From contig JAGCVJ010000004.1 in NCBI GenBank assembly GCA_017962375.1, positions 1 through 51,700 on the forward strand: a stretch of DNA of 51,700 nucleotides. The letters are read 5' to 3'. The translations under genes were made by a program, and so were the position numbers. This stretch comes from Bacteroidales bacterium (GTDB lineage: Bacteria > Bacteroidota > Bacteroidia > Bacteroidales > UBA932). Positions 5,410 through 35,857 of the stretch are shown here, piece after piece; the stretch's first letter is position 1; each line of letters opens with the position of its first letter. The notes below the pieces were generated by a model. It made no database searches, was not told where the DNA came from, and saw only the letters and a list, made by a program, of their open reading frames with translations.

Positions 5410-7191
5410 ATGAGCGCAAAAGTAATCAATAAAAGCGAAGTTAAGAAGTCAATGAAGATTCCGGGGATTCCCGGCAGTCTTCTCGCCGCCATGACAATGA
5501 AGATCGCCGGCCTTGACAAGCTCAACGAGCTTTATGACCGCCTGGCTGATTACAAAGGAGTAGAGTTTGCGGACAAGGTGCTGGAGCATCTGGAGATAAC
5601 CCTGAATGTCAACACGTCCGCTCTCGAGAACATTCCTAAGGAAGGTGGCTTGGTCATAACTTCCAACCACCCGTTCGGCGGGCTGGACGGACTGGCCGCC
5701 CTGAGCATTCTGGGAAAGGTGCGAAAAGACGTGAAGATCCTCACGAACTTCATCCTTTCAAAGGTCCCTAACGTTTCCGATCACTTTATTCCGATCAACA
5801 CCACTTACGCTTTCGGCAAATTCACCGCCCCGACGATTTCCGGTCTCAGGCAGGCCGAAGAACATCTGCTTAAAGGTGGTCTCCTGGTGATATTCCCGGC
5901 CGGAGAGGTTTCTTCCTGGAACAATCAGGGAAAGGTTGTTGAAGATGCCGAATGGATGACCTATATCAGCCGTCAGGTCCGCCGCTCAAAATGCCCGGTA
6001 ATCCCGATGTATTTCCACGGCAAGAACTCCAAGTATTTCCAGTGGCTGGGAAGGATATCCACAAAGCTCAGCGACCTTCGCTTCACGGGAGAGATATTTG
6101 ACAAGAAGGGCAAGGAAATAAAGGTGAGGATAGGATCGGTGATCCAGCATGCTGAACTTGAGAAGTTCCAGGAAGACAAGATAGTGGCCAAATTCCTCAG
6201 AAGCCGTTCCTATATGCTGGAGGCTGACACCATAGAAAAGGACGAGAGCGTTTACACCACCAAGCTTGGAGAATTTGTTCCGACAGACGTCCTCTTGAGG
6301 GAACTGGAAGAAAACAAGGACGCCCATTTGTTTGACGTGGGAACCCTTTCCTGCTACCTGTTCGACTACAACCGCATACCGAACATTATGCGCGAGATTG
6401 CTGTAAGAAGGGAGGAAGCTTTCCGCGCCGTAGTGGAAGGCACCAACACTCCTGCGGATACGGACGCATACGATGTTTACTACAAGCATCTTGTTCTATG
6501 GGACAATGCCGCAAAAGATCTTGTGGGGGCCTACAGGCTTGGCTTGGGTGCAGATATTCTCCGTGAGAGAGGAATCCACGGATTCTATGCGGATACGCTC
6601 TTCCGCTATTCCGACAAATTCGCTCCCGTTCTGGAAAAGTGCGTTGAACTCGGCCGCAGTTTCGTGTGTGTAAGCCACCAGAAGGACACGCTGGCGCTTA
6701 TGCTTTTGCTCAAGGGTCTTTTCTATACGCTGATGAAGTATCCGGAATACAAATACCTCATCGGCCCTGTAAGTATAAGTTCTTGGTATCCTATGCTTTA
6801 CCGCAGCGTGATGATTCACTATCTGAGGCAGCACCACAGTAATCCGGAGTATGACAAGATGACAAACCCAAAGACTCCGTTTATTCCTGATTTCGGAAGG
6901 GTGGATCCGGATGCGCTTCTTTTCGGCAAAACCGCCAATCTGGAAATGTTCGACCGCTATCTTCTGAGAATGAGCGGAGGGCAGTACCGTCTTCCGCCGC
7001 TGCTGAAGAAATACATAAAGATGGGATCCAAGATCATCGACTACAACGTGGATCCGGATTTCAACTATTGTGTGGACGGACTGATAATGCTGGCCCTTGA
7101 GGATATTCCTACGGACGACCTGGATTCTCTCTCAAGAGAGTTCGAAGACAGGGAACCTATCTACCGCCGCTTCTACGGCTCCAGCTTCTAA
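5410..7191 (+). CDS. Fused PlsC-like O-acyltransferase and GNAT N-acyltransferase (amino-lipid synthesis)
   Basis: The 593-residue protein joins two acyltransferases. The N-terminal half is a PlsC/lysophospholipid acyltransferase with NHPFGGLDG near residues 86-94 and FPAGEVSSW further on. The C-terminal half (about 300-500) is an OlsB-like GNAT domain of the ornithine/glycine-lipid type (LFDYNRIPNIMREIAVRREE, DLVGAYRLG). In characterised bifunctional enzymes of this order (the OlsF type), the C-terminal domain N-acylates an amino acid and the N-terminal domain adds the second acyl chain. This gene may therefore make ornithine- or glycine-type aminolipids alone; the amino acid cannot be read from sequence. 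In Bacteroides the two activities (GlsB and GlsA) are separate genes. A later in-frame ATG at 5452 is an alternative start. Confidence 0.85.
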   Translation: MSAKVINKSEVKKSMKIPGIPGSLLAAMTMKIAGLDKLNELYDRLADYKGVEFADKVLEHLEITLNVNTSALENIPKEGGLVITSNHPFGGLDGLAALSILGKVRKDVKILTNFILSKVPNVSDHFIPINTTYAFGKFTAPTISGLRQAEEHLLKGGLLVIFPAGEVSSWNNQGKVVEDAEWMTYISRQVRRSKCPVIPMYFHGKNSKYFQWLGRISTKLSDLRFTGEIFDKKGKEIKVRIGSVIQHAELEKFQEDKIVAKFLRSRSYMLEADTIEKDESVYTTKLGEFVPTDVLLRELEENKDAHLFDVGTLSCYLFDYNRIPNIMREIAVRREEAFRAVVEGTNTPADTDAYDVYYKHLVLWDNAAKDLVGAYRLGLGADILRERGIHGFYADTLFRYSDKFAPVLEKCVELGRSFVCVSHQKDTLALMLLLKGLFYTLMKYPEYKYLIGPVSISSWYPMLYRSVMIHYLRQHHSNPEYDKMTNPKTPFIPDFGRVDPDALLFGKTANLEMFDRYLLRMSGGQYRLPPLLKKYIKMGSKIIDYNVDPDFNYCVDGLIMLALEDIPTDDLDSLSREFEDREPIYRRFYGSSF

Positions 7192-7196
7192 AACAT

Positions 7197-7868
7197 TTAC
7201 GGTACCGGATCGTAGCCGCTGCCGCCCCACGGGTGGCATCTCAGGATACGTTTTGCAGCTAGGTAGAAACCTTTGAAAGGCCCGTATTTGCGGAACGCCT
7301 CAATAGCGTACTGCGAACAGGTGGGAGTGAATCTGCAGGTGGCGGGCTTGAGCGGCGAAATGCACACCTGGTAAAACTTTATCAGAATGACAAAAGGAAA
7401 AATCGCGACACTCTTGACAACAGACAGGAAAGTTCGCCGAGGCTTTTCTCCAGAAGAACTGTCTTCTTTGGAGCCTTCCTCTTTTGGCTCTTCCGGCTTG
7501 TTCTCGGCGATGGTTGAGAGTATGGCCTTCACCGCCTCTTCAATCTTTGAGTAGGGCAGCTTTTCCTTTGCAATGTAATTGAAGCTGATGCTGGCCCTGC
7601 AAGGCGGAAGTATCTCCTTGTTCAGACGATAAGCCTCTCTCATCCTGCGCTTCAGAAGATTGCGGTCGACGGCTTTCTTGAACAGTTTCTTGGGCACCAC
7701 AACCATGATCCGGTTCTGGTTTCCGTCTTCAGAAGAGGAATTGAAAAGATACTTTGCGGCCAGAGGAAAACTCTCTGCACGCCGCCCCCTGGACATAAGC
7801 CGCAGGATTTGATTTCTGGACTTAAGCCTCTCGTTCTTTTTGAATGTCTTTGGAGCGGTGGATGGCAT
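7197..7868 (-). CDS. rnpA-yidD: Fusion of RNase P protein and membrane-insertion factor YidD
   Basis: Residues 1 to about 115 are RnpA, the protein subunit of RNase P that processes tRNA 5' ends ([15 protein letters not shown], and the RNR-box region [15 protein letters not shown]). After an acidic Glu/Ser-rich linker (about 115-140) the chain continues into YidD, a small amphipathic membrane-associated factor that helps YidC insert proteins ([36 protein letters not shown]). The two are neighbouring genes in most bacteria; here one uninterrupted 223-codon frame encodes both. It lies directly downstream of hemD with 3 bases between them. The single chain may be cleaved or may tether RNase P protein to the membrane; neither can be seen from sequence. 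Confidence 0.92.
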
Positions 7869-8798: not shown

Positions 8799-9565
8799 TA
8801 CACAAACAATCTAATCAGAACGGCTGCAGGCAGCAATTCGAGGGTGCAAATGTACAAAATGTAGAAATAAACAGAAAAATTGTTTTTAAGTATTATTCTC
8901 GACACCATTACCAGATACAAGACGGCTGGTATTATGCAAAGCAAAGAAAGATAGGGGCTTATCTTGTACAAAAGCAAGAATGGAGAGGCCATTATCAGAT
9001 AATTTGCCCCAACCCTTCCGGCAAACTTGAAAACAGATGTGCGGTTCACATAGTCCAGCACGGAGAGTATCCCGTACTTTAGGGCAAGGCCCAGGGCAAT
9101 CAGGCCTAATGCCAGAACGAAATATTCCGGAGCGGGTGACAGGGCGAACACTACAGTGGGGAAAAAGAAGAAAAACGCGATGTCTCTGGATGAGCTCCAG
9201 GACAGGTCGTCATCCACTTCTATCTGTCTTTTAACCAGAAGCGATGCCCAGAAAGCTCTGCCCAGCCCCTCTATGATTCTCTCCGTTGCCACCAGGAAAA
9301 AAATCACCAGCACCAGCACAATCCCCAGATCCACATACCTTTCCGACATCATCTTCACCTTGGGAATTTCAACAGTTGCGCCCGTAGAAAGCTTTGTGCC
9401 ATTCCAGGCTTTGGCTATGTTCACCGATGAATCTGAAGCCACGGCAGAAGAGTCGCGATCGAGATAAAAAGTATTGCATGCGGCATTGCCCTGGTCCGGG
9501 AATTCAGGCTTGAGCGCCGGGGCCAGAGAGTCATAAGGATTATATATCACCGTATGCTGGAGCAT
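8798..9565 (-). CDS. DUF4271 family membrane protein
   Basis: The 255-residue protein has a soluble N-terminal stretch of about 70 residues followed by several hydrophobic helices (YVDLGIVLVLVIFFLVATER, DIAFFFFFPTVVFAL, YLIMASPFLLLYKI, and a C-terminal pair). This pattern and its place immediately before hemD fit DUF4271, a Bacteroidota family of unknown function. It sits 4 bases after the SUI1-like gene and overlaps hemD by one base, so SUI1-like, DUF4271, hemD and rnpA-yidD form one operon. Confidence 0.75.
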   Translation of the reverse strand: MLQHTVIYNPYDSLAPALKPEFPDQGNAACNTFYLDRDSSAVASDSSVNIAKAWNGTKLSTGATVEIPKVKMMSERYVDLGIVLVLVIFFLVATERIIEGLGRAFWASLLVKRQIEVDDDLSWSSSRDIAFFFFFPTVVFALSPAPEYFVLALGLIALGLALKYGILSVLDYVNRTSVFKFAGRVGANYLIMASPFLLLYKISPYLSLLCIIPAVLYLVMVSRIILKNNFSVYFYILYICTLELLPAAVLIRLFV

Positions 9566-9569
9566 GTTG

Positions 9570-9917
9570 TCAGTTGCCTCGTTTTGCCTTGTAGCCGTCC
9601 TGAGTGAGAAGGGCCACTATCTTGTCTCTGAAATCTCCCTGGATGATGATTTCTCCGTCCTTTACGCTTCCGCCTACGCCGCACTTGGTCTTGAGCTTTT
9701 TGCCCAGGGCAGACAGGTCATCGTCGCTCCCCACAAAACCCTTGACCAGAGTCACCTGCTTTCCGGCTCTTCCGCTGCGGTCTATTGCAACAATCAGTTT
9801 CTGCTTTTCTGCCGGCAGCGTAGCGGCTTGCTCTTCAGACTCTTGCGTCTCGTATTTAAAATTGGGGTTGGTGGAGAAAACCACTCCGTCCCTCTTTTTC
9901 CAGTCGTTCTTTCCCAT
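9570..9917 (-). CDS. SUI1/eIF1-like translation factor (YciH type)
   Basis: The protein is read from ATG at 9917 (MGKNDWKKRDG, 115 aa); a longer reading to 9950 would run into its own -7 box and is not preferred. The C-terminal 75 residues form a SUI1 domain (KLIVAIDRSGRAGKQVTLVK, LKTKCGVGGSVKDGEIIIQG, VALLTQDGYKAKR), the fold of eukaryotic eIF1. Bacterial members are thought to influence start-site fidelity, especially under stress. A TATCTTTG box lies 20 bases upstream and would drive the four-gene operon. Confidence 0.88.
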   Translation of the reverse strand: MGKNDWKKRDGVVFSTNPNFKYETQESEEQAATLPAEKQKLIVAIDRSGRAGKQVTLVKGFVGSDDDLSALGKKLKTKCGVGGSVKDGEIIIQGDFRDKIVALLTQDGYKAKRGN

Positions 9918-9936
9918 AATCGTAGAAATAGAGCTA

Positions 9937-9965
9937 CAAAGATAGTGCAAGTTTTCTTATCTTTG
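9937..9965. promoter_or_regulatory. Divergent -7 boxes between SUI1-like and DUF2723 genes
   Basis: TATCTTTG is present on the minus strand at 9937-9944 (for the SUI1-like operon) and on the plus strand at 9958-9965 (for the DUF2723 gene). The two identical boxes are 13 bases apart, so RNA polymerase can probably bind only one at a time. Confidence 0.6.
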
Positions 9966-9999
9966 CTTGTTACACAAAAGACACGAAAAACAAGAAAGA

Positions 10000-12900
10000 A
10001 TGGAATACAGAAAATTCAGCCGGATTAACAATATTGTGGCAGTTGTGGTTTTGGCGATAGCGTCTTTCACATACCTGTCCACGATTGAACCGACAGCCAG
10101 TTTCTGGGATTGCGGAGAATTCATAGCATCATCATACAAGCTGGAGGTGGGACACCCTCCGGGAAACCCTACGTTCCAGGTGATTGCCCGCTTCTTCACC
10201 ATGTTTGCAGACAAGGAGCATGCGGCAATGATGGTAAACGCCATGAGCGCCATCTGCTCTGCGCTTACAATAATGCTGCTTTATCTGACCATAGTGCATC
10301 TGGCACGCCGCCTGATGGAAAAGAAAGGAAGTGAATTCACATCCGCCAATGCAATCAAGATAATCGGGGCCGGAATAGTTGGATCGCTGGCATACTGCTG
10401 GTCTGACACATTCTGGTTCTCGGCTGTGGAGGGCGAGGTTTATGCAATGAGCTCCCTTGCCACGGCTCTGGTGTTCTGGGCTATGCTCAGGTGGGAAGAG
10501 AGGGCCGACGAGCCTTACGCCAACCGCTGGCTGGTGCTGATAGCTTTCATTATGGGCTTTTCAATCGGAGTGCATCTGCTGAACCTGCTGACCATTCCGG
10601 CACTGGGAATGATTTACTACTACCGCAAGTTCAAGGTTACAACCTGGGGCGCGTGGAAGGCGTTCTTCGTTTCCTGCTTCATTCTCATCGTGATAAACTG
10701 GATAATCATACCTTATCTGCCGGCTTTGTCCGCGTTTGTAGACAGGATCTTCGTAAACGGATTCTCCATGCCTAAAAACAGCGGAGCGGCATTCTTTGTT
10801 CTGTTGATCATAGGCCTTTGCTTCTGGGGCGCCTACAGGTCTTACAAGAAGGGCAAGGCGCTGTGGAACAATGTGTTCCTTTGCACACTGGCCATCATCA
10901 TCGGCTACTCGATATTTGCCGTAACGGTTATCAGGTCATCGGTGAACACTCCTACAAACGAGTATCAGCCGGACAACCCTTACACCCTGGTAAGGTATCT
11001 GAACAGAGAGCAGTACGGTTCGGCGCCGCTGCTTTACGGCCAGACTTTCAAGTCTCAGATGACAGCCGTAGAAACTCCGGAATACTACAACTACGACAAC
11101 TCTGCAAAGAAATATGTGAAGCTCGACGGTCCCGCACAGCCGGTTTACGGAGGCAAGATGCTCTTCCCGAGAATGTGGTCCAATGCAGACGCTTCATACG
11201 ACAGGTTCTACCAGATCTACACGGAAGGCGTAGGAACGGGGCCTAACGGAGCTCCTTCTTTCGGGGCCAACCTCAAGTATTTCTTCGGCTACCAGCTGAA
11301 CTTCATGTACTGGAGATATTTCCTGTGGAACTTTGCCGGAAGGCAGAACGACCTCCACGCCCAGGTTCCTGGAGACATCTACAAGGGCAACTGGGAGAGC
11401 GGCATAGGCTTCATAGACAGGGCCCGTCTGGGCGACCAGTCCGAAGGTCCTGACTACATTGTGAACAGTCGGGCCAAGAATCACTTCTACCTTCTGCCTC
11501 TGATTCTGGGAATTATAGGGCTTTTGTACCAGCTGCGTCACGACAAGCGCAACGCTCTGGTCACCTTCTTGCTGTTCTTCCTGACGGGAATTGCCGTAGT
11601 GCTTTATCTGAACCAGCCGCCTTACCAGCCGAGAGAGAGGGATTACGCATACGCGGGATCTTTCTACGCTTTCACAATCTGGATTGGCTTTGCCGTGCTT
11701 TGGCTCGGCGACAAATTTGAAAAGCTGTTCAAGTCAAAGAAAGCGGCTCCTGCAGTTGTGGCCGGCGTCCTCTGCCTGCTGGTTCCGATTCAGATGGTGT
11801 CCCAGACCTGGGACGACCACGACCGCAGCGGAAGATACACCTGCCGCGACATGGCCTACAACTATCTGGCGGCCCTGGGGCCTAATGCCATTCTGGTAAC
11901 TCACGGCGACAACGACACTTTCCCTCTATGGTACATCCAGGAGGTTGAGGGCGTGAGGACGGACGTGAGGATAATGAACACCTCACTGCTCGGAACAGAC
12001 TGGTACATAGACCAGATGAAGTGCAAGCAGTACGACAGCGATCCGGTTCCGTTCTCTTTGGAGAAGAAAGACTACTACTACGGCAAGAACGATTTTGTTC
12101 CGGTTGCCGACTACATAGAGGAACCGGTTCTGGCATCCGACCTGATCAAGGTTCTGAAAGACCCTTCTGTAAAAGTGAGGATGGGGGACAACAAGGATCA
12201 CAACATCATAGCCGGAAGGCATTACATTATTCCTGTGAACAAGGAGAGCGCCATCAAGAACGGAATTATTTCTCCTCGCGATTATGACAGGATTCCGGAA
12301 TATATCCAGCTCGACATTCCTGCCGGAGTGAGCAGCATAGACAAGACATCGCTGATGACTTTGGATTTGCTTGCAAACTACAAGTGGGACCGTCCGCTTT
12401 ACTTCCTCCAGAGGGCCGGAGACATCAACATCGGCCTCAAGGAATACCTGCAGTGGGAAGGCTTCGGGTTCAAGTTTGTTCCTTTCAAGAGCCAGACCGG
12501 AGTAAGGAACGACAACTTCGACCAGACAGCCGATGCCGACACACTCTACCACAGGATTATGGATGTTTACAGGTTCGAGTCCCTTGCCGGCAAGTTCAAT
12601 GTGGACTACCAGAACCTGCTTACTTTCAACTCCCTGATTTCCACTCGCGACCTGATAGTAAACACCGCCAAGATGTATGTTGAGGAAGACAATGCAGAAA
12701 AGGCCGTAGAGCTTCTGGACAAGATGCAGAGCGTTATGCCTGAGAGCAACTTCCCTCTGAACAACTCGCTGATTTCAACCATCAACGACCTGGCCGTCCT
12801 GGATGCCATAAACATTTATTTCGCTTGCGGAGAAAATGAGAAGGGAGAGTCTCTCTCCGACAGGTTCGTGACAGAAACCTTAAATCACATAAAGCTGCTG

Positions 12901-26164: not shown

Positions 26165-27157
26165 ATGCCAAGAAGTTTATCTGGTAGAAGTTTTCTGAAA
26201 CTGCTGGACTTCACCACCGAAGAAATTCAATATTTGCTGAAACTGAGTGAGGATTTCAAGAACCTCAAGCGTACAAACACTCCACACAAATACCTTCAGG
26301 GAAAGAATATCGTGCTGCTGTTTGAAAAGACATCTACACGTACCCGCTGCTCTTTTGAAGTGGCCGGAAACGACCTGGGCATGGGAGTTACCTACCTGGA
26401 CCCGAACTCTTCCCAGATGGGCAAGAAGGAGTCTCTGGAAGATACCGCAAAGGTTCTCGGAAGAATGTATGACGGAATCGAATACCGCGGCTTTGACCAG
26501 AAGATCGTTGAGGATCTTGCAAGATATGCAGGAGTTCCTGTATGGAATGGCCTTACCACAGACTTCCATCCAACTCAGATGCTGGCAGACGTGCTGACAA
26601 TCAAGGAAAACTTCGGATACTACAAGGGCCTGACAATGGTGTTTATGGGCGATGCCCGCAACAACGTTGCCAACTCCCTTATGGTGGTTTCTGCAAAGCT
26701 CGGAATCAACTTCGTGGCTTGCGGCCCTAAGGCCAATATGCCTGCCAAGGAGCTGGTTGACACCTGCAAGAAGATTGCAAAGGAGAACGGCTGCACCATC
26801 ACCCTCACAGACGATGTGAAGAAGGGAACCAAGAACGCAGACGTTATCTACACAGACATCTGGGTTTCCATGGGCGAGCCGGCAGAGCTCTGGGAGAAGA
26901 GAATCAAGCTCCTGAAGCCTTATCAGGTCAACGACGCCGTTATGAAGAACGCTTCTCCAAACGCCATCTTCCTGCACTGCCTTCCTTCTTTCCACGACCT
27001 GGAGACAACGATCGGAAGAGACATCTACGAGAAGTTCGGCCTGAAGGAGATGGAGGTTACCGACAAAGTCTTCCGCAGCAAGCAGTCAAAGGTATTTGAC
27101 GAGGCAGAGAACCGTATGCACACCATTAAGGCCGTGATGTACGCAACTCTCAAGTAA
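26165..27157 (+). CDS. argF: Ornithine carbamoyltransferase
   Basis: The enzyme interconverts ornithine plus carbamoyl phosphate and citrulline. The 330-residue protein has [16 protein letters not shown] and [12 protein letters not shown] for carbamoyl phosphate, the SMG loop motif in [13 protein letters not shown] for ornithine, and [10 protein letters not shown] (the usual form is HCLPAFHD). The SMG motif argues against the acetyl- or succinylornithine enzyme known from Bacteroides. Carbamate kinase follows and ornithine aminotransferase is near, which suggests the catabolic direction (arcB-like), though direction cannot be proved from sequence. No arginine deiminase gene lies in the window. 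Confidence 0.94.
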
Positions 27158-27185: not shown

Positions 27186-27230
27186 CTCCCACTCCTTATG
27201 GAATGGGAGTTTGGTTTTCTTTTTTTTCTG
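27186..27230 (+). terminator. Terminator after ornithine carbamoyltransferase
   Basis: A 10-base stem (27186-27195 with 27200-27209, one C-A mismatch) around TTAT is followed by a T-rich run. arcC begins only about 20 bases later, so this may be a partial terminator allowing read-through. Confidence 0.75.
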
Positions 27231-27247
27231 AATTTGGACAAAGATTT

Positions 27248-28195
27248 ATGGGAAAGAGATTAGTATTGGCGCTGGGAGGAAACGCTCTGGGAAACACTCC
27301 CGAGGAGCAGCTTAAACTGGTAGAGACCACAGCCTCTGCGATAGTGGACCTGGAGGAAGACGGATACGACGTGGTCGTTGGCCACGGCAACGGTCCGCAG
27401 GTGGGAATGGTTAACCTGGCACTGGAATATTCGGCCACTCACGGAGGAAAGACTCCGCTGATGCCGTTCCCGGAGTGCGGAGCCATGACTCAGGGCTACA
27501 TAGGATATCATCTGCAGCAGGCTATCCAGAGGGAGCACGGAAGAAGGCACATGCCAAGGCCTTGCGCCGCTGTCCTGACTCAGGTGGTGGTTGACGAGAA
27601 CGACCCTGCCTTCCAGAACCCGACCAAGCCGATCGGTGCTTTCTACGGCAAGAACGAGGCTGAGGCCATTGCCAGAAAGACAGGCTATATTTTCGTTGAG
27701 GATGCAGGCAGGGGCTGGAGGAGAGTTGTTCCTTCTCCAAAGCCTGTGAAGATTGTCGAGCTTCCGGTTGTAAGGCGTCTTATTGAGGCCCATACTACTG
27801 TCATCACCGTTGGCGGTGGCGGCATACCTGTTGTCCAGAAGGGCTGGGACGACTTCCGCGGAGTGGCTGCCGTGATAGACAAGGACCGCGCCTGCGCCAA
27901 GCTTGCCATAGACCTCAAGGCCGATATGCTGGTCATCCTTACCGCTGTGGATAAGGTTTCCATCAACTTCAACCAGCCTAACCAGTACGATCTGGATTCA
28001 ATGTCAGTGGAAGAGGCCAAACAGTTCATGGCCGAGGGGCAGTTTGCTCCTGGCAGCATGCTTCCTAAGATTGAGTCTTGCGTGAACTTCCTGGAGAAAC
28101 GTCCTTCCGGCATGGCATTGATCACTTCTCTGGAAAAAGCCCGTGAAGCCCTCTGGGGCAAGACCGGAACGATAATCGTTTCCAAGAAAAAGTAG
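27248..28195 (+). CDS. arcC: Carbamate kinase
   Basis: Carbamate kinase makes ATP from carbamoyl phosphate and ADP. The 315-residue protein (start MGKRLVLALGGNALG; the upstream ATG at 27203 lies in the terminator stem and is rejected) has VVVGHGNGPQVG, TVGGGGIPV and the C-terminal IDKDRACAKLA and LILTAVD-like LVILTAVDKV segments. Its last twelve codons are repeated at 30487-30522 on the far side of a protease cassette, so the 3' end seems to have been replaced by an insertion that kept the frame intact (the end is now SKKK instead of SKKR). Confidence 0.96.
   Translation: MGKRLVLALGGNALGNTPEEQLKLVETTASAIVDLEEDGYDVVVGHGNGPQVGMVNLALEYSATHGGKTPLMPFPECGAMTQGYIGYHLQQAIQREHGRRHMPRPCAAVLTQVVVDENDPAFQNPTKPIGAFYGKNEAEAIARKTGYIFVEDAGRGWRRVVPSPKPVKIVELPVVRRLIEAHTTVITVGGGGIPVVQKGWDDFRGVAAVIDKDRACAKLAIDLKADMLVILTAVDKVSINFNQPNQYDLDSMSVEEAKQFMAEGQFAPGSMLPKIESCVNFLEKRPSGMALITSLEKAREALWGKTGTIIVSKKK
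28160..28188 (+). repeat. 29-bp direct repeat, left copy (3' end of arcC)
   Basis: This 29-base stretch inside the last codons of arcC is identical to 30488-30516. The two copies are 2328 bases apart and bracket the C10 protease and its neighbour. Confidence 0.9.
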
Positions 28196-28244
28196 TCTCG
28201 TTTCAAAGAACATACATAGGTTCAGACAACAAATAATCAAATAT

Positions 28245-29720
28245 ATGAACACAAGAGTCACATCAAGTTATTCTGTAACTTTACTCACTATATTATTAGT
28301 TGCGATAGTAACTTCTTGTAGTAAAGACGACAGTGTAGTTAACAAACAAGAAAAATATATTAATTCTCACAGGATACCTCAAGAAATTGCTATTAAAGAA
28401 CTAGAATCCTTTCTCATCGATGATGATGTTCTTACTAAAGGAGGTAATGGACATAGAGTTATTAAAAGTATTGAATGTTTAACTGAGCGTGTGCCATCTA
28501 CCAAAATCGGGAGCGATTACAACGGTTTGGATACCCTTATCTACATTGTTAATTTTGATAATCAAGAGGGTTTTGCTGTTCTCAGCGCTGATGACAGAAT
28601 TTCATCAATGATAATAGCCGTTACAGAAAAGGGAGAGCTGCATCCTGATGATTTCCTCTCTGCTCAAAATATGCAGGAAGATTCCTTGATACACTATACA
28701 GACACTCTTGGGATAGAGAGAACGCTTAATCGTTACAATTCGGAAGAAGACGACTATTATGTTGCAAGACGAGATTCTTCTGATATGATACCTGAACTTA
28801 TATGGGATTACATAGACGGTGAAAGATCAGGACGTGGTGGTAGTGATTATAATCCGGGAGAGAATGAGGGTGGCGGTAATAATGGAGGGTCCAATAGCGG
28901 AAGTAATCTACCCGGCAGCAATGGAGACGGCAACGGAAACAACTGGGCCTCTCAGTCAGTCTGGGTAACAAGACAAAACGTCCCAATGATGTTGCAGACT
29001 CTTTGGAATCAAGAAGATGATGTCATAGAATATAATAGATATTGTCCTCGAACCTTGTTTGGTAAAACTCCTGTAGGTTGTGTTCCTGTTGCTGTTGGTC
29101 AAATAATGGCATATCATGAATATCCCTCCATTTTTCCTTGTGATAATTACACAATTAATTGGGGTGCTATCAAAACAGTACACCCATACGGTGTTGATTC
29201 TACATATATTGAAGATGATGATGCTATTGATATGTTGGCTCATTATTTAAAGAAAGTTGGAAGAGCTTGCAACACACTGTATTTAGGACCAGGTTTTTCT
29301 TTCTCCTTGTCAAGCTGGGCTAGAAGAGCTCTTGAAGGATATGGTTATAGAAATGTAGAAAACAACTGGCATTTTAGAAAGAGCGATATTATTAATATGC
29401 TAGATAATGATAACCCAGTATTTATGTTAGCCGTATCTGGTTTGTTTAATGGACACGCTTGGGTGGTTGATGGCTATCGATATCAAGAAAGAGTTGTGCC
29501 TGAGTCTGGAGACATAACTGGGAATAGAACTCTTCTTCACTGTAATTGGGGGTGGGGTGGTTATGCAAATGGTTACTATGCATACAAGATTTTTAAACCA
29601 AAGAACGGAGCTTATGAGTATGAGGATGATTGGGAAGAAGAATATTACGGAAACACTACGGAACCATACAATTTCAAGTGGCATTTCAGAATAATTACAT
29701 ATAGCAATCCAAGTCTCTGA
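28245..29720 (+). CDS. C10 family (streptopain-like) cysteine protease, lipoprotein
   Basis: The 491-residue protein has a lipoprotein signal (VAIVTSC, Cys25), a Spi/propeptide-like N-terminal domain (DTLIYIVNFDNQEGFAVLSA, which keeps the enzyme inactive in the family), a Gly/Asn/Ser-rich linker (about 198-232) and a C10 catalytic domain. The catalytic Cys279 is in TPVGCVPVAVGQIMAYHEYP and His404 in NGHAWVVDGYRYQ; a later LHCNWGWGGYANGYY is typical too. Relatives include streptococcal SpeB, the Bacteroides fragilis Bfp proteases and Prevotella interpain. It is expected to be anchored at the cell surface. Base composition is far more AT-rich than that of arcC. Confidence 0.92.
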   Translation: MNTRVTSSYSVTLLTILLVAIVTSCSKDDSVVNKQEKYINSHRIPQEIAIKELESFLIDDDVLTKGGNGHRVIKSIECLTERVPSTKIGSDYNGLDTLIYIVNFDNQEGFAVLSADDRISSMIIAVTEKGELHPDDFLSAQNMQEDSLIHYTDTLGIERTLNRYNSEEDDYYVARRDSSDMIPELIWDYIDGERSGRGGSDYNPGENEGGGNNGGSNSGSNLPGSNGDGNGNNWASQSVWVTRQNVPMMLQTLWNQEDDVIEYNRYCPRTLFGKTPVGCVPVAVGQIMAYHEYPSIFPCDNYTINWGAIKTVHPYGVDSTYIEDDDAIDMLAHYLKKVGRACNTLYLGPGFSFSLSSWARRALEGYGYRNVENNWHFRKSDIINMLDNDNPVFMLAVSGLFNGHAWVVDGYRYQERVVPESGDITGNRTLLHCNWGWGGYANGYYAYKIFKPKNGAYEYEDDWEEEYYGNTTEPYNFKWHFRIITYSNPSL

Positions 29721-29725
29721 TCGAA

Positions 29726-30478
29726 ATGAGAAGATTTTTATTTCTGTTATTTGTGGTTTCTTTTTCATGCGTTTTTATTGGTTGTCCAGCAAAACACCAT
29801 TGGGAAAAAGAAACATTTTTCATATCCAAATATTTTGAGCCAACTTTATTTGTTTCTCAGATAGAGGGAGCAGATACGCTTTTTGTGGTCAAATATAAGG
29901 TGGGGAACAAGGATATGAAAGGAGAGGAATGGAATAAGTACAAATCTTTGTGTGTTAAACATAATGATTTAGGTTTATCAAAGCCTTACAAATATAGTTA
30001 TGAGTACGGTGCTAAGGTTGTAGCTTGGGATTTTGAGAAAGTGGAAATCAAATGTCTTTCCGATTATGACAAAGAACACCTGAAAGGCTCTTCTTTGAAT
30101 GATATAACAACCTTTTATACGACTACTTTATATCCTTTTCTTAAAAGCGGATATGAAAAACTAGCAGATCCTAAGAGCTTTGGCATACCGGAAACTATTT
30201 TAAAGCTCTTGTATCCGGCTCAATGGTTGCACTCTCCTGATTTCAAGTTTTCATTGTCTTCTTTTTTCCCGAACATACCGGTTGTAAGGCGTACATCTGA
30301 ACTTAAGAAAGATGATCTAATGGTAATAGGAGGGGGGTATCCTAATACAGTACCTCATTTGGCTGTAATCAGATTAGATAAGAGGCCAGATAAACCTGGT
30401 GATTATATGATAGATGTGATATTTACCACAGACGAAGGTGGAACTATTACAGCTGGAGGAATCGTTCATTTCGATTAG
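29726..30478 (+). CDS. Lipoprotein of unknown function, partner of the C10 protease
   Basis: The 250-residue product has a lipoprotein signal ending in CVFIGC (Cys20). It starts 5 bases after the protease stop, so the two are co-translated. No known domain is recognised; the mature part is Lys/Tyr-rich in its first half and ends in a beta-rich stretch (LMVIGGGYPNTVPHLAVIRL). C10 proteases of Bacteroides are often encoded beside small Spi-like inhibitors; this protein is larger than those and shows no visible similarity, so an inhibitor or substrate-presenting role is only a guess. Confidence 0.75.
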   Translation: MRRFLFLLFVVSFSCVFIGCPAKHHWEKETFFISKYFEPTLFVSQIEGADTLFVVKYKVGNKDMKGEEWNKYKSLCVKHNDLGLSKPYKYSYEYGAKVVAWDFEKVEIKCLSDYDKEHLKGSSLNDITTFYTTTLYPFLKSGYEKLADPKSFGIPETILKLLYPAQWLHSPDFKFSLSSFFPNIPVVRRTSELKKDDLMVIGGGYPNTVPHLAVIRLDKRPDKPGDYMIDVIFTTDEGGTITAGGIVHFD

Positions 30479-30487
30479 TTCAAGGGA

Positions 30488-30516
30488 AAGACCGGAACGA
30501 TAATCGTTTCCAAGAA
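30488..30516 (+). repeat. 29-bp direct repeat, right copy
   Basis: Identical to 28160-28188. The preceding 12 bases match the arcC sequence at 8 positions, so homology fades leftward instead of stopping sharply. It does not encode a whole gene here. Confidence 0.9.
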
Positions 30517-30522
30517 GAGATA

Positions 30523-30554
30523 AAAAAAAGAGCGGCAGCCGCCGCTCTTTTTTT
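30523..30554. terminator. Bidirectional terminator between the arcC group and rocD
   Basis: Perfect 14-base arms (30523-30536 and 30541-30554) around AGCC, with A-rich and T-rich outer ends that are part of the stem. The right arm overlaps the rocD stop codon. It would originally have ended the arcC transcript. Confidence 0.88.
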
Positions 30555-31863
30555 ACTTGGACATTTCCTCGAATGTCTTCTTGATGATGCCCACTGCCTG
30601 TTTGATTTCCTTTTCGTTGATGCACAATGGCGGCGCGAAGCGGATGATGTGGTCGTGGGTTGGCTTAGCCAGCAGGCCGTTGTCGCGGAGCTTCAGGCAG
30701 ATGTCCCAGGCGGTTTTCTTGCCGATAGGCTTGGTTACGATGGCATTCAGAAGGCCGCGTCCTCTTACCTGCACGATGAACGGAGAGTGGATCTTGTTGA
30801 TTTCGTCGCGGAAGATCTTTCCCATCTTCTCTGCGTTCTCGGTAAGCTTCTCTTCCTTTATTACAGTAAGGGCCGCTACTGCAACCTTTGCTGCCAGAGG
30901 GAATCCTCCGAAGGTTGAGCCGTGTTCGCCTGGCTTCACGTTCAGCATGATGTCGTCGTCTGCAAGGCAGGCTGAAACTGGAAGCACACCTCCTCCGAGG
31001 GCCTTGCCCAGGATAACGATGTCCGGACGGATGCCGTCGTGCATTGAGCAGAGCATCTTTCCTGTCCTTGCTATACCTGTCTGAACCTCATCGGCGATGA
31101 AGAGCACATTGTGCTTGTGGCACAGGTCGAAGCATTTCTTCAGGTAGCCGTCATCCGGAACAAACACTCCTGCCTCTCCCTGGATTGGCTCGGCGATGAA
31201 AGCGCACACTTCCTTGCCATATCTGTTGAGAGCTTTCTCCAGCGCCTTAGGATCGTTGTAAGGGATGCGGATGAAGCCAGGGGTCAGAGGACCGTACTGG
31301 GCGAATGAAGAAGGATCGTCGCTCATGGTGATGATGGTGACGGTTCTTCCGTGGAAGTTTCCGCTGCAGCAGATGATCTTGATCTTGTCGTTAGGAATGC
31401 CCTTCTTTACTGCTCCCCAGCGGCGAGCCAGTTTCAAAGCTGTCTCCACTCCTTCCGCTCCGGTGTTCATAGGCAGAACCTTGTCATATCCGAAGTATCC
31501 GTGCATGAATTTCTCGTACTCGCACAGGCAGTTGTTGTAGAATGCCCTTGAAGTCAGGCAAAGCTTGTCTGCCTGGTCTTTGAGGGCCTTCACGATCTTT
31601 GGATGGCAGTGGCCCTGGTTTACTGCCGAATAAGATGAGAGGAAGTCGAAGTACTTGTTGCCCTCAACATCCCATACATAGATTCCCTTTCCTCTTTCGA
31701 GTACTACAGGAAGCGGATGGTAGTTGTGCGCTCCATACTTTTCCTCCATTGCCATATAACGTTTGCTAACGGCGGTTATCTTTGCCTTAGGCTGCACCTT
31801 CTTTGCTGCTGGCTTTGCAGCTTTCTTTGCCGGTGCTTTTGCTGTTTTGGTTTTTGTTGCCAT
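30553..31863 (-). CDS. rocD: Ornithine aminotransferase with Lys/Ala-rich N-terminal extension
   Basis: RocD converts ornithine and 2-oxoglutarate to glutamate semialdehyde and glutamate. The 436-residue protein has the class-III transaminase pattern: [19 protein letters not shown], the Asp in [16 protein letters not shown] and the PLP-binding Lys in [16 protein letters not shown]. The first 28 residues ([20 protein letters not shown] and onward) are an extra basic Lys/Ala/Pro tail with no role in the fold. A similar tail is seen at the C-terminus of HemD in this window. The gene converges on the arcC group. Confidence 0.95.
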
Positions 31864-33052: not shown

Positions 33053-34444
33053 CTATGGGTTGATTCTTGGTGTATTTGTAAGTATTTCTCTCATCAATTC
33101 AGTAGAGGTTTTTAGATCCTCTTCGGAATAGGTGTAAGGGCTATCAGCAGGGTGGTCAATCTTGTTTCTAATAAGAGTTGTAAGTGAAGAATAGGTTGTA
33201 CTGCCATTGTATGTTATCCTTTCATGTACAGCCCTGTTATATTGAGGCGTTGAAACTATAAAGTCATCGCATGTCTTAATGTGTTGATTTGAACAGTATC
33301 TTGCTTGAATTTCTCCATACAGAGCAATGTGATAATCAACCGAATAGATTCCGAAAGCTTTATAATTGATTTCTGCAGCTGTAATAGTCGGAAGAAGGAA
33401 AGGTTGCCTTATCTCATTAGATTCAATCTTGCCATTATTGTCGTGAAGAACGATAACGAGTGTGTTTTCAGCATCACTAAGTGCGGATTCCAGAAGGAAA
33501 TCTGAATGCGAAGCAAAAAACAATTGGACACGAAGGGAGCCATCCCCATTTCGAAACAAATCTTGATAATAATTAAGTATTTTCTTTTGCCATTTTGGGT
33601 GCATGCTAAGTTCCGGTTCGTCAATATATACTGTCGCACCATCCAATTGGTTAACATTCCTTAGAAGATAGATTCCCCTGAAAACTATTTGTTTTTCTCC
33701 AGTACTAAGCGAATCGATAGATATTTCTTTATTGTGTTTTTTAAAAATAATCCTCTTCTCACCATCTACTGTTTTGACCTGATCATATTCAAGTTCATCA
33801 AAGAAGCCATTAATAGCCTCTTTAAAACGATACATCCTTGATGATGGGTAGAAGGTAGTCCATGGATTTGCAGCACCGTCATTTTGAATACCTCTTTGCA
33901 TATAATCTTCAGCATCCATTATATCAACATCAACAATAAGTTGCTTTAGATCAGTAAAGTCGTTATTTTCGTCAACTTGATATTTGCTATCATCCAGCAC
34001 GGATGTTGAAGAAGATTTGATAGGTTTTGCAATAAAGTCAGAACGAGCTTTTGATAAAACACAGCCATAGTGACGCAGATCGTCCTTGTCCTTCTCGGCA
34101 TCCTGTGGATTATTGCTTCGGTCACGGGCGAGATTCGTCCCCTCTCCAGTAGATAAATTGGTTCTTTTATACCAACTGCTCGGAGGATTGGAATATCCAG
34201 TACCGTCAAATTTTGAAGCAACATAATTGTGCCCATCTACCGAATATTCTATACATTCAAAAGGAGCCAGACTCCCTCCATTAAGAAAGCTAGATAACTG
34301 ATGTAAGATAGTAGATTTTCCAGTTCCGTTCTCTCCAGCGAAAACGATAGTTGAATATGCCTTATCTGTATGATGATTAACAAAATCCAATGATAAATTG
34401 CCCATTATCTGGTCGTCTTTCCAAGTTATCTTTCTAATTAGCAT
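33053..34444 (-). CDS. AAA ATPase with C-terminal HEPN-like R-x4-H motif
   Basis: The 463-residue protein has an SMC/ABC-like ATPase: Walker A GENGTGKST (37-45), signature SLSTGEKQIVF, Walker B TVYIDEPELSMHP and a following ASHSDFLL histidine switch. After the ATPase the last 60 residues contain TLIRNKIDHP (R426, N427, H431), the R-N-x3-H pattern of HEPN ribonucleases, followed by a helical EEDLKTSTELMREIL. Such ATPase-HEPN pairings occur in phage-defence toxins such as PrrC and relatives. The neighbour upstream is a second ATPase, and a CBASS operon is divergent. Codon use is AT-rich compared with core genes. A defence role is likely but unproved. Confidence 0.72.
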   Translation of the reverse strand: MLIRKITWKDDQIMGNLSLDFVNHHTDKAYSTIVFAGENGTGKSTILHQLSSFLNGGSLAPFECIEYSVDGHNYVASKFDGTGYSNPPSSWYKRTNLSTGEGTNLARDRSNNPQDAEKDKDDLRHYGCVLSKARSDFIAKPIKSSSTSVLDDSKYQVDENNDFTDLKQLIVDVDIMDAEDYMQRGIQNDGAANPWTTFYPSSRMYRFKEAINGFFDELEYDQVKTVDGEKRIIFKKHNKEISIDSLSTGEKQIVFRGIYLLRNVNQLDGATVYIDEPELSMHPKWQKKILNYYQDLFRNGDGSLRVQLFFASHSDFLLESALSDAENTLVIVLHDNNGKIESNEIRQPFLLPTITAAEINYKAFGIYSVDYHIALYGEIQARYCSNQHIKTCDDFIVSTPQYNRAVHERITYNGSTTYSSLTTLIRNKIDHPADSPYTYSEEDLKTSTELMREILTNTPRINP

Positions 34445-34576
34445 ACTCTTATATTTTTATGTGTTTGCCTCCTTAGTCTCCCATCCTTCATTAAAATAAT
34501 GGGGAATAAGTTTGATTATCGGCCAGTTACATTATTTCATTGATTGTTGATTTCGCCAATGGAATGAGTGTTTTCC

Positions 34577-35857
34577 CTATTGTATTGGATCATTAACCAT
34601 AAAAGGAATGGCACCATAAAGGCCATTGACATAATTCTTTTGATAATTGGAATCACTCCGTGGGGCATGACCCAATTTATCAGTTGCCCTCATCATAGGA
34701 TAGAGCACGCTGCATTCACTGTGGTTTTTTTCTACAAACCAAATCTGATCTCGACGGAAAAGACGGTTGGAGAGAAGATGGGTATTATGTGTGGTGAATA
34801 TCAACTGCGCTCCATGAGGGTTTTGGGAAGAATTGTTAAAAATCTGAATTAGCCGCCACGATAGAAGAGGGTGCATTTGCGAATCAAGTTCATCAATAAC
34901 GAGAACACGTCCATTTTGGAGCGCCTCTAAAATTGGACCTGTCAGATTAAAAATCTTGTTCGTCCCGGCTGATTCATTCTCATCAAGATCAAGAGAACGA
35001 TTTCCAACGGCGTGTCCATCTTTTTCATACACAATATGCATTGATGAGACCTCAATGATACTTCGCCCCCTGAACTGCTCTATCAGTTCTGAAGGGAAGC
35101 CCTGAGGAAAAGCGATTTTTTCGAACTCCACTTTCTTGGTTTCAAACTCATCAAACCCCAAATTCATATTCCGAAGGAACTCTTTGGCAAGTATTCTATA
35201 TTGCTCATTCTCGTGAACCAGACGCCTTGTGTAACCAGCATAATCAGAGCCTTCAATGCCAGAGAGAACTCGAATCTCGTTTTGAAACAAAGCGATTACG
35301 CTATTTGATAGCGTACCACCTAATTGCCCAACCAGAGAAAGGAATAGCCTATTCTTGTTCAGGTTAACTGTAATACCGAACCCTTCTTGAAAACCTACGG
35401 GACTGATTTCCAACTGATCACCATCACGCGAAAAGAGTGTCTTCCCTGATTTCCTGGGAGACTTCAAATGCAGCCATTCCTTTGTTATAGATGAACGTAG
35501 ATACTCAAATCCATACGTGTAGGTTGTCTTATCTAGAATACTATATAATACAGCCTCGAGTTTTGTGGGGCGTGGCTTTTCATTGGTCAGTAGGAAAGGA
35601 TCGTAAGGAAGATCCTCATTTTCGTTGAGCTTAACTGACTGGACAATAATACGCCTCATTGTGCTGATGGCTCGGAGAAAGTTTGTTTTACCGCTAGAAT
35701 TGGCGCCATAGAAAGATACGACGTTCAATACTTTACTGTTTCCAATATCTGTAAATGCACCTTCAATGTTATCGCGAAGGCCATTGGATGCGGAAAGGTC
35801 GAGCGTCATTTCCCGCCCAAAAGAACGGTAGTTATCTACGGTAAATCTCAAAAGCAT
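34577..35857 (-). CDS. RloA/AbiLi-like AAA ATPase
   Basis: The 426-residue protein has Walker A GANSSGKTN (51-59), a recognisable start LLRFTVDNYRSFGREMTLDL, Walker B VLVIDELDSQMHP and THNTHLLS, and ends with RSDSNYQKNYVNGLYGAIPF. This is the AAA_15/RloA-AbiLi type found in restriction and abortive-infection loci. RloA is usually followed by RloB; here the next gene is instead the ATPase-HEPN-like gene, 132 bases on. That gap shows no TAnnTTTG promoter, so the two are probably one transcript, driven by the box at 35880-35887. Confidence 0.75.
   Translation of the reverse strand: MLLRFTVDNYRSFGREMTLDLSASNGLRDNIEGAFTDIGNSKVLNVVSFYGANSSGKTNFLRAISTMRRIIVQSVKLNENEDLPYDPFLLTNEKPRPTKLEAVLYSILDKTTYTYGFEYLRSSITKEWLHLKSPRKSGKTLFSRDGDQLEISPVGFQEGFGITVNLNKNRLFLSLVGQLGGTLSNSVIALFQNEIRVLSGIEGSDYAGYTRRLVHENEQYRILAKEFLRNMNLGFDEFETKKVEFEKIAFPQGFPSELIEQFRGRSIIEVSSMHIVYEKDGHAVGNRSLDLDENESAGTNKIFNLTGPILEALQNGRVLVIDELDSQMHPLLSWRLIQIFNNSSQNPHGAQLIFTTHNTHLLSNRLFRRDQIWFVEKNHSECSVLYPMMRATDKLGHAPRSDSNYQKNYVNGLYGAIPFMVNDPIQ

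Follow-up and report, generated by a model that had tools for sequence, protein, structure and literature searches.

A C10 protease cassette behind the carbamate kinase gene arcC of a rumen Bacteroidales bacterium and a second arcC end as the possible scar of its import

Here, we analyzed a window of 51,700 nucleotides from a Bacteroidales bacterium (assembly GCA_017962375.1, contig JAGCVJ010000004.1, positions 1 to 51,700), in which a C10 cysteine protease gene and a gene for a 250-aa lipoprotein lie behind the carbamate kinase gene arcC. The gene order is argF, arcC, C10 protease and lipoprotein, followed by rocD on the opposite strand. The two middle genes are an insertion: arcC in front of them has an end unlike that of relatives whose site is empty, an arcC tail like that of these relatives stands behind them, and the nearest relative of the sequence changes in argF, about 1.2 kb upstream. 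We favor the reading, with a probability of about 0.58, that the cassette was imported on DNA of a related lineage that brought its own arcC end together with the C10 and lipoprotein genes. Four other species bear the same scar, which suggests that genes are repeatedly gained at this spot in the absence of a visible mobility enzyme. A preliminary description of the locus had likened the two arcC ends to a duplicated attachment site and suggested that the cassette may be an unknown mobile one; to us, the second copy rather resembles a remnant of the resident arcC.

The two arcC ends and the empty site

The end of arcC recurs downstream as a direct repeat of 33 nt with one mismatch (32/33; 28156-28188 and 30484-30516), the copies lying 2328 nt apart from start to start and sharing an identical run of at most 29 nt. 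This agrees with the preliminary description, as does the strong terminator that follows the right copy; it was called on the minus strand, but either side of its symmetric stem is rich in T. With the arcC end as a 161-nt query (E 0.001), the only matches in the genome of the window were this end itself and the right copy. The tail copy of the window scores 30, as compared with best ungapped scores of no more than 14 at arcC loci without such a copy, and thus the repeat is not due to chance. The AT-rich character reported for the C10 gene was also evident for the insert, with a G+C content of 0.35-0.43 in 500-base windows wholly inside the insert vs 0.51-0.57 in windows over arcC.

We then looked for arcC in all 39 available genomes of the genus, including the window's own. 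Fifteen of them gave a match at E <=1e-20; one match is a contig-edge fragment, and 13 genomes besides that of the window have a full arcC. In 9 of these 13, rocD follows arcC without an intervening gene, and five of the nine (G016, G026, G032, G027 and G010; G and L numbers are our handles for genomes and loci) have an arcC end and terminator identical to the right copy of the window or differing from it by a few bases. The comparison of the arcC-rocD interval that had been proposed therefore gave five congeners with an empty site, in line with an insertion that left arcC intact. The codons at the end of arcC read AAAAAGTAG in the left arcC of the window, AAGAGATAA in the other empty-site relatives and AAAAGATAA in G010. 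Because these relatives resemble the right copy and not the left one, the left arcC end is new and came with the insertion, and what lies to the right looks like the earlier end. The other four congeners with adjacent arcC and rocD have different short spacers without genes. A different insert was found between arcC and rocD at L073 (G020:C5, ~9270-11210), containing a trypsin-like (S1) protease gene and a 168-aa gene with no arcC tail copy, and no rocD was seen in the available arcC flank of G023, G012 and G013. Judged from their titles, the congeners with this locus are Bacteroidales metagenome assemblies from the rumen and neighboring stomachs; RUG in assembly titles is presumably the name of a rumen series. 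Close relatives of arcC (E 1e-120) were also sought in 393 genomes of the order, and only the own genome gave a match.

The coordinates of the locus are given in Table 1. Judged from homologues, arcC probably starts at 27248 (315 aa) rather than at 27203. TAnnTTTG is a promoter element of Bacteroidetes, and none was found in the stretch preceding either the C10 gene or the lipoprotein gene; terminator-like sites on the plus strand were likewise not found from arcC to the C10 gene. Owing to these two observations, transcription of the C10 gene from arcC is plausible. Thus, the lack of a recognizable promoter, as previously described, was confirmed, while the statement that both genes are on the arcC transcript is better reduced to a plausible co-transcription.

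Table 1. Features of the argF-rocD region (positions in the window)
Feature	Position	Strand	Remarks
argF/OTC (ornithine carbamoyltransferase)	26165..27157	+	TIGR00658; conserved upstream neighbor of arcC
arcC carbamate kinase, intact, 3' part probably imported	27248..28195	+	TIGR00746 above cut-off; protein end ...GTIIVSKKK (stop)
Left repeat copy, end of functional arcC	28156..28188	+	repeat comparison
Remaining new arcC end and 49-nt leader	28189..28244	+	left arcC ends AAAAAGTAG; without terminator or TAnnTTTG
C10 (streptopain-type) cysteine protease, 491 aa	28245..29720	+	PF01640 Peptidase_C10 2e-25; PF13734 Inhibitor_I69 1e-6
250-aa lipoprotein (lipobox by eye)	29726..30478	+	C10 operon partner elsewhere in genus
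Right repeat copy, remnant of resident arcC tail (...GKTGTIIVSKKR, stop)	30484..30523	+	5 nt behind lipoprotein stop codon
Native arcC-rocD terminator, now 3' of cassette	30523..30554	.	similar in empty-site relatives
rocD ornithine aminotransferase, conserved right flank in genus	30553..31863	-	TIGR01885

Recurrence of detached arcC tails and gene turnover

A scan for second tails over 80 arcC loci of named genomes and the window, of which 79 were testable, gave scores of at least 27 for the window, L151, L132 and L150 and scores of at most 13 for the rest. The genus of L151 is a sister rumen genus, in which arcC is present in 79 of 101 genomes, at 80 places. A detached second arcC tail (36-453 bp) was found behind unrelated cassettes at 4 of the 77 testable places of this genus, although 4/77 is not a blind count and to that extent speaks against our reading, three of the four cases having been known before the sister genus was chosen. 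In the fourth case, L269, an AraC/TPR regulator and another, distinct C10 protease are encoded in the insert, which is followed by a 453-bp arcC fragment. Including the window, there are five cases in five genomes, with tail copies of 33-453 bp; the right tails start 36-40 nt from the gene end in three of them, and 140 and about 452 nt from it in the other two. The proposed search for other cassettes at the same arcC end was thus successful, with similar insertions in four other species. It had also been considered that the repeat might come from an arcC pseudogene copy with longer homology, which is not seen in the window but is present in two of the four relatives (140 and 453 bp).

As a control, the identical rule was applied to 638 ends of open reading frames (ORFs) in ~850 kb (own genome, G445, G010 and the window). 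Four ends scored at least 20, namely the window's arcC and three G445 genes, i.e. 3/637 other gene ends. All three G445 copies lie inside full-length paralogous ORFs (312, 971 and 1154 aa) and none is detached. Since the control genes are of mixed families, the comparison with arcC is a rough one, whether made on the raw score (4/77 vs 3/637, Fisher P 0.0034) or on detached tails (4/77 vs 0/637, Fisher P 1.3e-4). A first gene-end control, based on a seeded search with lower sensitivity than the arcC rule, gave 1/637. In a seeded survey that covered 104 stretches, mostly around arcC, and 813 ORF ends, three arcC cases were recovered (L132 was missed), along with two others that look like tails of neighboring paralogues. 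When tails were paired with random other loci, only one of 77 scored above 13, presumably a case where the partner is itself a tail-copy locus. At 20 of the 80 places, tail copies were searched up to 20 kb further and none was found, the best same-strand score being 14. In one assembly, G458, two small contigs (L274 and L276) each contain a full arcC, and the genes downstream are not the same; this may reflect a strain mixture or two loci.

The two sides of arcC behave differently: the gene upstream belongs to one family (carbamoyltransferase) in 74 of 76 loci, vs 41 families for the gene downstream in 78 loci, 28 of them singletons. Part of this downstream spread may come from the whole argF-arcC unit sitting at different places; still, 11 loci sharing three upstream families have 7 different first downstream families. 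In the window's own genus, different cassettes between conserved genes, as in a hotspot, are represented by the C10 pair of the window and the S1 protease insert of G020, with the site empty in five congeners. The order in L151 (arcC, an FGE-sulfatase/dockerin gene, an arcC fragment and a second gene of the same cluster) suggests cassette stacking.

In agreement with the preliminary description, no integrase was found in the insert. Across the five inserts, neither integrase nor transposase was detected by tblastn with 10 ORFs from PF00589 loci (two of these are partial, and another, from L215, turned out to be an ATPase) or by Pfam analysis of the main ORFs. Within the available stretches behind arcC (<=9 kb), a clear recombinase was found in one locus only (L141, identical to L290), and a weak match lies 5.5 kb behind arcC in L116. 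At L141/L290 (G482:C51), an integrase gene is located from 2.4 kb behind arcC and is followed by a small mobilizable-looking gene set. We found no arcC tail copy behind arcC in L290 down to the contig end, and a 13-bp match there was rejected as an attachment-site remnant because it sits inside coding sequence. The own genome has three PF00589 matches, all on contigs other than the window's; one tyrosine-recombinase match (G000:C2:95311-95889) has one in-frame stop.

Origin of the two tails and the route of import

Over the five cases, the left tail departs from the right one by ~30.5 synonymous and ~11.5 non-synonymous changes (averaged over paths), as against a neutral expectation of 75% non-synonymous changes (P 3e-10). 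At the protein level, 2 of 150 codons differ in L269, one each in L296 and the window, and none in L247 and L279. As the differences are mostly synonymous, both tails look like functional arcC alleles from separate lineages. In L279, the sequence after the right tail aligns with that directly after arcC in L292 (68%, 384 nt), and its right tail is therefore the resident one. A local duplication of the arcC end, with unrelated genes inserted between the copies and subsequent drift, would equally give two arcC ends in direct order. We regard it as very improbable, given that the changes are those of genes under selection in separate lineages and not those of a gene and its dead copy, and that the left end is unlike, and the right end like, that of the close empty-site relatives.

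The sequences themselves have to be considered as well, because the relatives were assembled from metagenomes and the genome of the window is in 18 contigs and 87% complete, so that strains with different regions downstream of arcC might have been merged during assembly. Such an artefact appears remote: the five cases come from five genomes, three of which have names from different series (RGIG, UBA and SRR), the right tail stands close behind the last ORF in three cases (5-46 nt), and a chimera would hardly yield a junction between cassette and tail 5 nt after a stop codon.

A switch of the nearest relative was located in argF at 26972-27018: the sites that tell L114 and L117 apart favor L117 upstream (93:256, L114-like to L117-like) and L114 downstream (65:17). 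Identity to L114 is 98% over 26991-27157 and 27248-27700, as compared with 82% in pyrB. The insert ends of the five cases share no sequence above that of shuffles.

Based on these observations, we propose that incoming DNA pairs on the left with the resident argF-arcC by housekeeping (RecA-type) homology, while its other end would join inside the resident arcC without extended homology. This could happen through homology-facilitated illegitimate recombination if the DNA was linear, or through a single crossover if a fragment had circularized. In the former, the homologous anchor would be the argF breakpoint, if this belongs to the cassette import; the right junctions of the five cases have no sequence in common. 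The newcomer arcC would replace the gene, and the last 33-40 bp of the resident together with its terminator would stay as a scar. Since arcC is restored and the old terminator follows the cassette, such an import should do little harm and can repeat; arcC would thus offer cassettes a landing site for turnover or stacking. Matches to the ComEC and DprA families were found in all five genomes searched.

On the other hand, several points weigh against this proposal. L114, which the arcC body of the window resembles, has an empty site and another arcC end, and identity to L114 is only 89% over the final 110 bases of the window's arcC; hence, the exchange in argF and the arrival of the cassette may have been separate events. 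The block at 27701-27921 splits 6:6 between L114 and L117, and the P value of the breakpoint is optimistic, as it is the best over all breakpoints, chosen from the data and uncorrected. The right flank does not return cleanly to the other lineage (33 L114-like to 24 L117-like sites). A donor, in which arcC would be directly followed by this C10 pair, was not found in the genomes searched. ComEC and DprA genes also occur in most control genomes, and the ComEC match of the own genome (G000:C3:15745-16479) has one in-frame stop; this stop and that in the recombinase match may be real decay or sequencing error. The allele patterns in L269 and L247 do not distinguish linear from circular integration. 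Finally, that three of five right tails start 36-40 nt from the gene end suggests more regularity than random joining would.

The last point leads to site-specific integration, in which a circle with an attachment site (attP) like the arcC end would have been integrated by an integrase acting in trans or lost since, the repeats being attL and attR. Restoration of the gene end by the insert is the pattern of integrations at 3' ends, the two copies in the window share a core that reads, by eye, as an imperfect palindrome (GGAACGATAATCGTTTCC), and tyrosine recombinases are present elsewhere in the genome, as mentioned above. This is nevertheless unlikely in our view. The tail copies vary from 33 to 453 bp, with right copies of 140 and 453 bp among them, the two copies diverge mostly synonymously as alleles do, the insert ends have no sequence in common, and there is a breakpoint upstream in argF. 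The recombinase expected in or near an integrative element at a gene 3' end was not found in any of the five inserts, and the one locus with a clear recombinase nearby has no tail copy on the rest of its contig. A recombinase in trans keeps a small probability because of the regular start of the three right tails. Its extreme form, in which the last ~40 bp of arcC, a housekeeping gene, are a dedicated attachment site in rumen Bacteroidales and small integrase-less cassettes are moved there in trans by an unseen recombinase, similar to integrons, seems quite improbable.

It is also possible that the region was exchanged by homologous recombination at both sides, from argF-arcC to rocD, as in a classic minimal mobile element, with the arcC tail already present in the donor cassette. 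The conserved rocD on the right, the G020 insert without a repeat and the mosaic right flank without a clear lineage would fit such a double exchange. However, it would only move the question of how the tail copy arose back in time, without answering it, and we consider such an exchange rather unlikely.

Cargo genes and relation to known systems

The first cassette gene belongs to the peptidase C10 family, with both PF01640 and PF13734 over the cut-off, as the preliminary description had assigned it. Its protein has a Spi/I69-like prodomain and a lipoprotein-type signal (lipobox by eye), and shows weak resemblance to interpain A and streptopain in PDB. By comparison with the residues of SpeB, we assigned by eye what we take to be the catalytic Cys and His motifs. 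Searches of Pfam, NCBIfam and PDB gave no match for the 250-aa lipoprotein. Its relatives were found directly behind C10 genes or pieces of them at six other loci of the genus (L077, L089, L084, L083, L088 and L091, the last by eye), and at further places in the genus without a recognized C10 gene. Guessing from this gene pairing, the lipoprotein is possibly an immunity protein or inhibitor of the C10 protease.

When the C10 protein was searched against viruses, plasmids, phages and other genomes, the cassette was not found; it was also absent from the other 60 genomes searched by DNA, and the repeat core pattern gave nothing in viral contigs. Among 17 C10-lipoprotein loci scanned, repeats of at least 20 nt were found in three (L083, L087 and L091). 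In L083 (G036:C21, 3996-6880), a repeat (CTTTTCGATAAGCCAAATGAGCAAAG...) occurs several times between genes around a C10 fragment and a lipoprotein gene; they resemble a dispersed intergenic repeat. In L087 (G012:C4), a 97-bp repeat with 3 mismatches (6246-6342 and 7374-7470, 1128 bp apart) flanks a lipoprotein gene of the same family, and L091 has two shorter imperfect repeat pairs.

Behind rocD, the window contains a DDE transposase remnant (PF01609, 32134-32923; the upstream part is in another frame, by eye), i.e. an insertion sequence beside the hotspot. Further on (33053-35857, minus strand), there are two AAA_21 ATPase genes, which were assigned by PADLOC to AbiLi (3e-87) and a PtuA-type model (1e-30) and are possibly a defense pair.

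In Bacteroides fragilis, C10 proteases with lipoprotein signals, some with a small adjacent partner gene, have been linked to horizontal transfer (PMC2873492), where bfp3 is located on the excisable element Bfgi2 with a 16-bp flanking repeat and putative staphostatin-like inhibitors have 116-138 aa. The window's C10 gene shares with them the lipoprotein signal, the adjacent partner gene and the link to horizontal transfer. Unlike Bfgi2 and these inhibitors as presented there, the arcC insert is 2.3 kb long with no integrase found, and the partner is a 250-aa protein without a detected family.

Integrase-less hotspots and minimal mobile elements are already known (PMC5635113; PMC4269198). The minimal mobile element of Saunders and Snyder (2002), as cited in PMC4269198, consists of different cassettes between conserved flanks without mobility genes. 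The arcC locus is similar in its varied cassettes, conserved flanks and lack of mobility genes, with no need for an integrase. It differs in being one-sided: here arcC, one of the two flanks, would itself have been exchanged and its former tail kept as a xenologous repeat. The tail copies of 33-453 bp at arcC are not those of a clean exchange between both flanking genes. With regard to hotspots of horizontal gene transfer lacking integrases, Oliveira et al. (2017; PMC5635113) proposed double recombination at both flanking core genes. High downstream turnover, the lack of a recognizable mobile element and recombination at a flank are common to these hotspots and arcC, whereas the arcC scar suggests that one side was joined inside the anchor gene.

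Both routes proposed above are described in PMC3240628, which deals with homology-facilitated illegitimate recombination, and with circularization followed by a single crossover, in competent species and in conjugation experiments with E. coli. As proposed for arcC, they combine homologous pairing at one end with non-homologous joining at the other, or a circle with one crossover, and either could leave a partial duplicate of the anchor gene. In contrast to these settings, the arcC pattern is recurrent and natural, and concerns a single gene of rumen Bacteroidales that have not been cultured. The open-license literature searched yielded no paper that describes arcC as a hotspot of insertion; as far as these searches show, what is new is that one-sided import at arcC in these bacteria has repeatedly left a scar that can be read. 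According to PMC5635113, many gene-gain hotspots have no integrases and the route of entry was inferred mainly from statistics. At arcC, the scar, i.e. the tail of the replaced anchor gene, is directly readable in five species, so that the one-sided mechanism becomes testable and datable, and arcC could be of use for counting gene gains among those rumen microbes that are known from metagenome assemblies alone.

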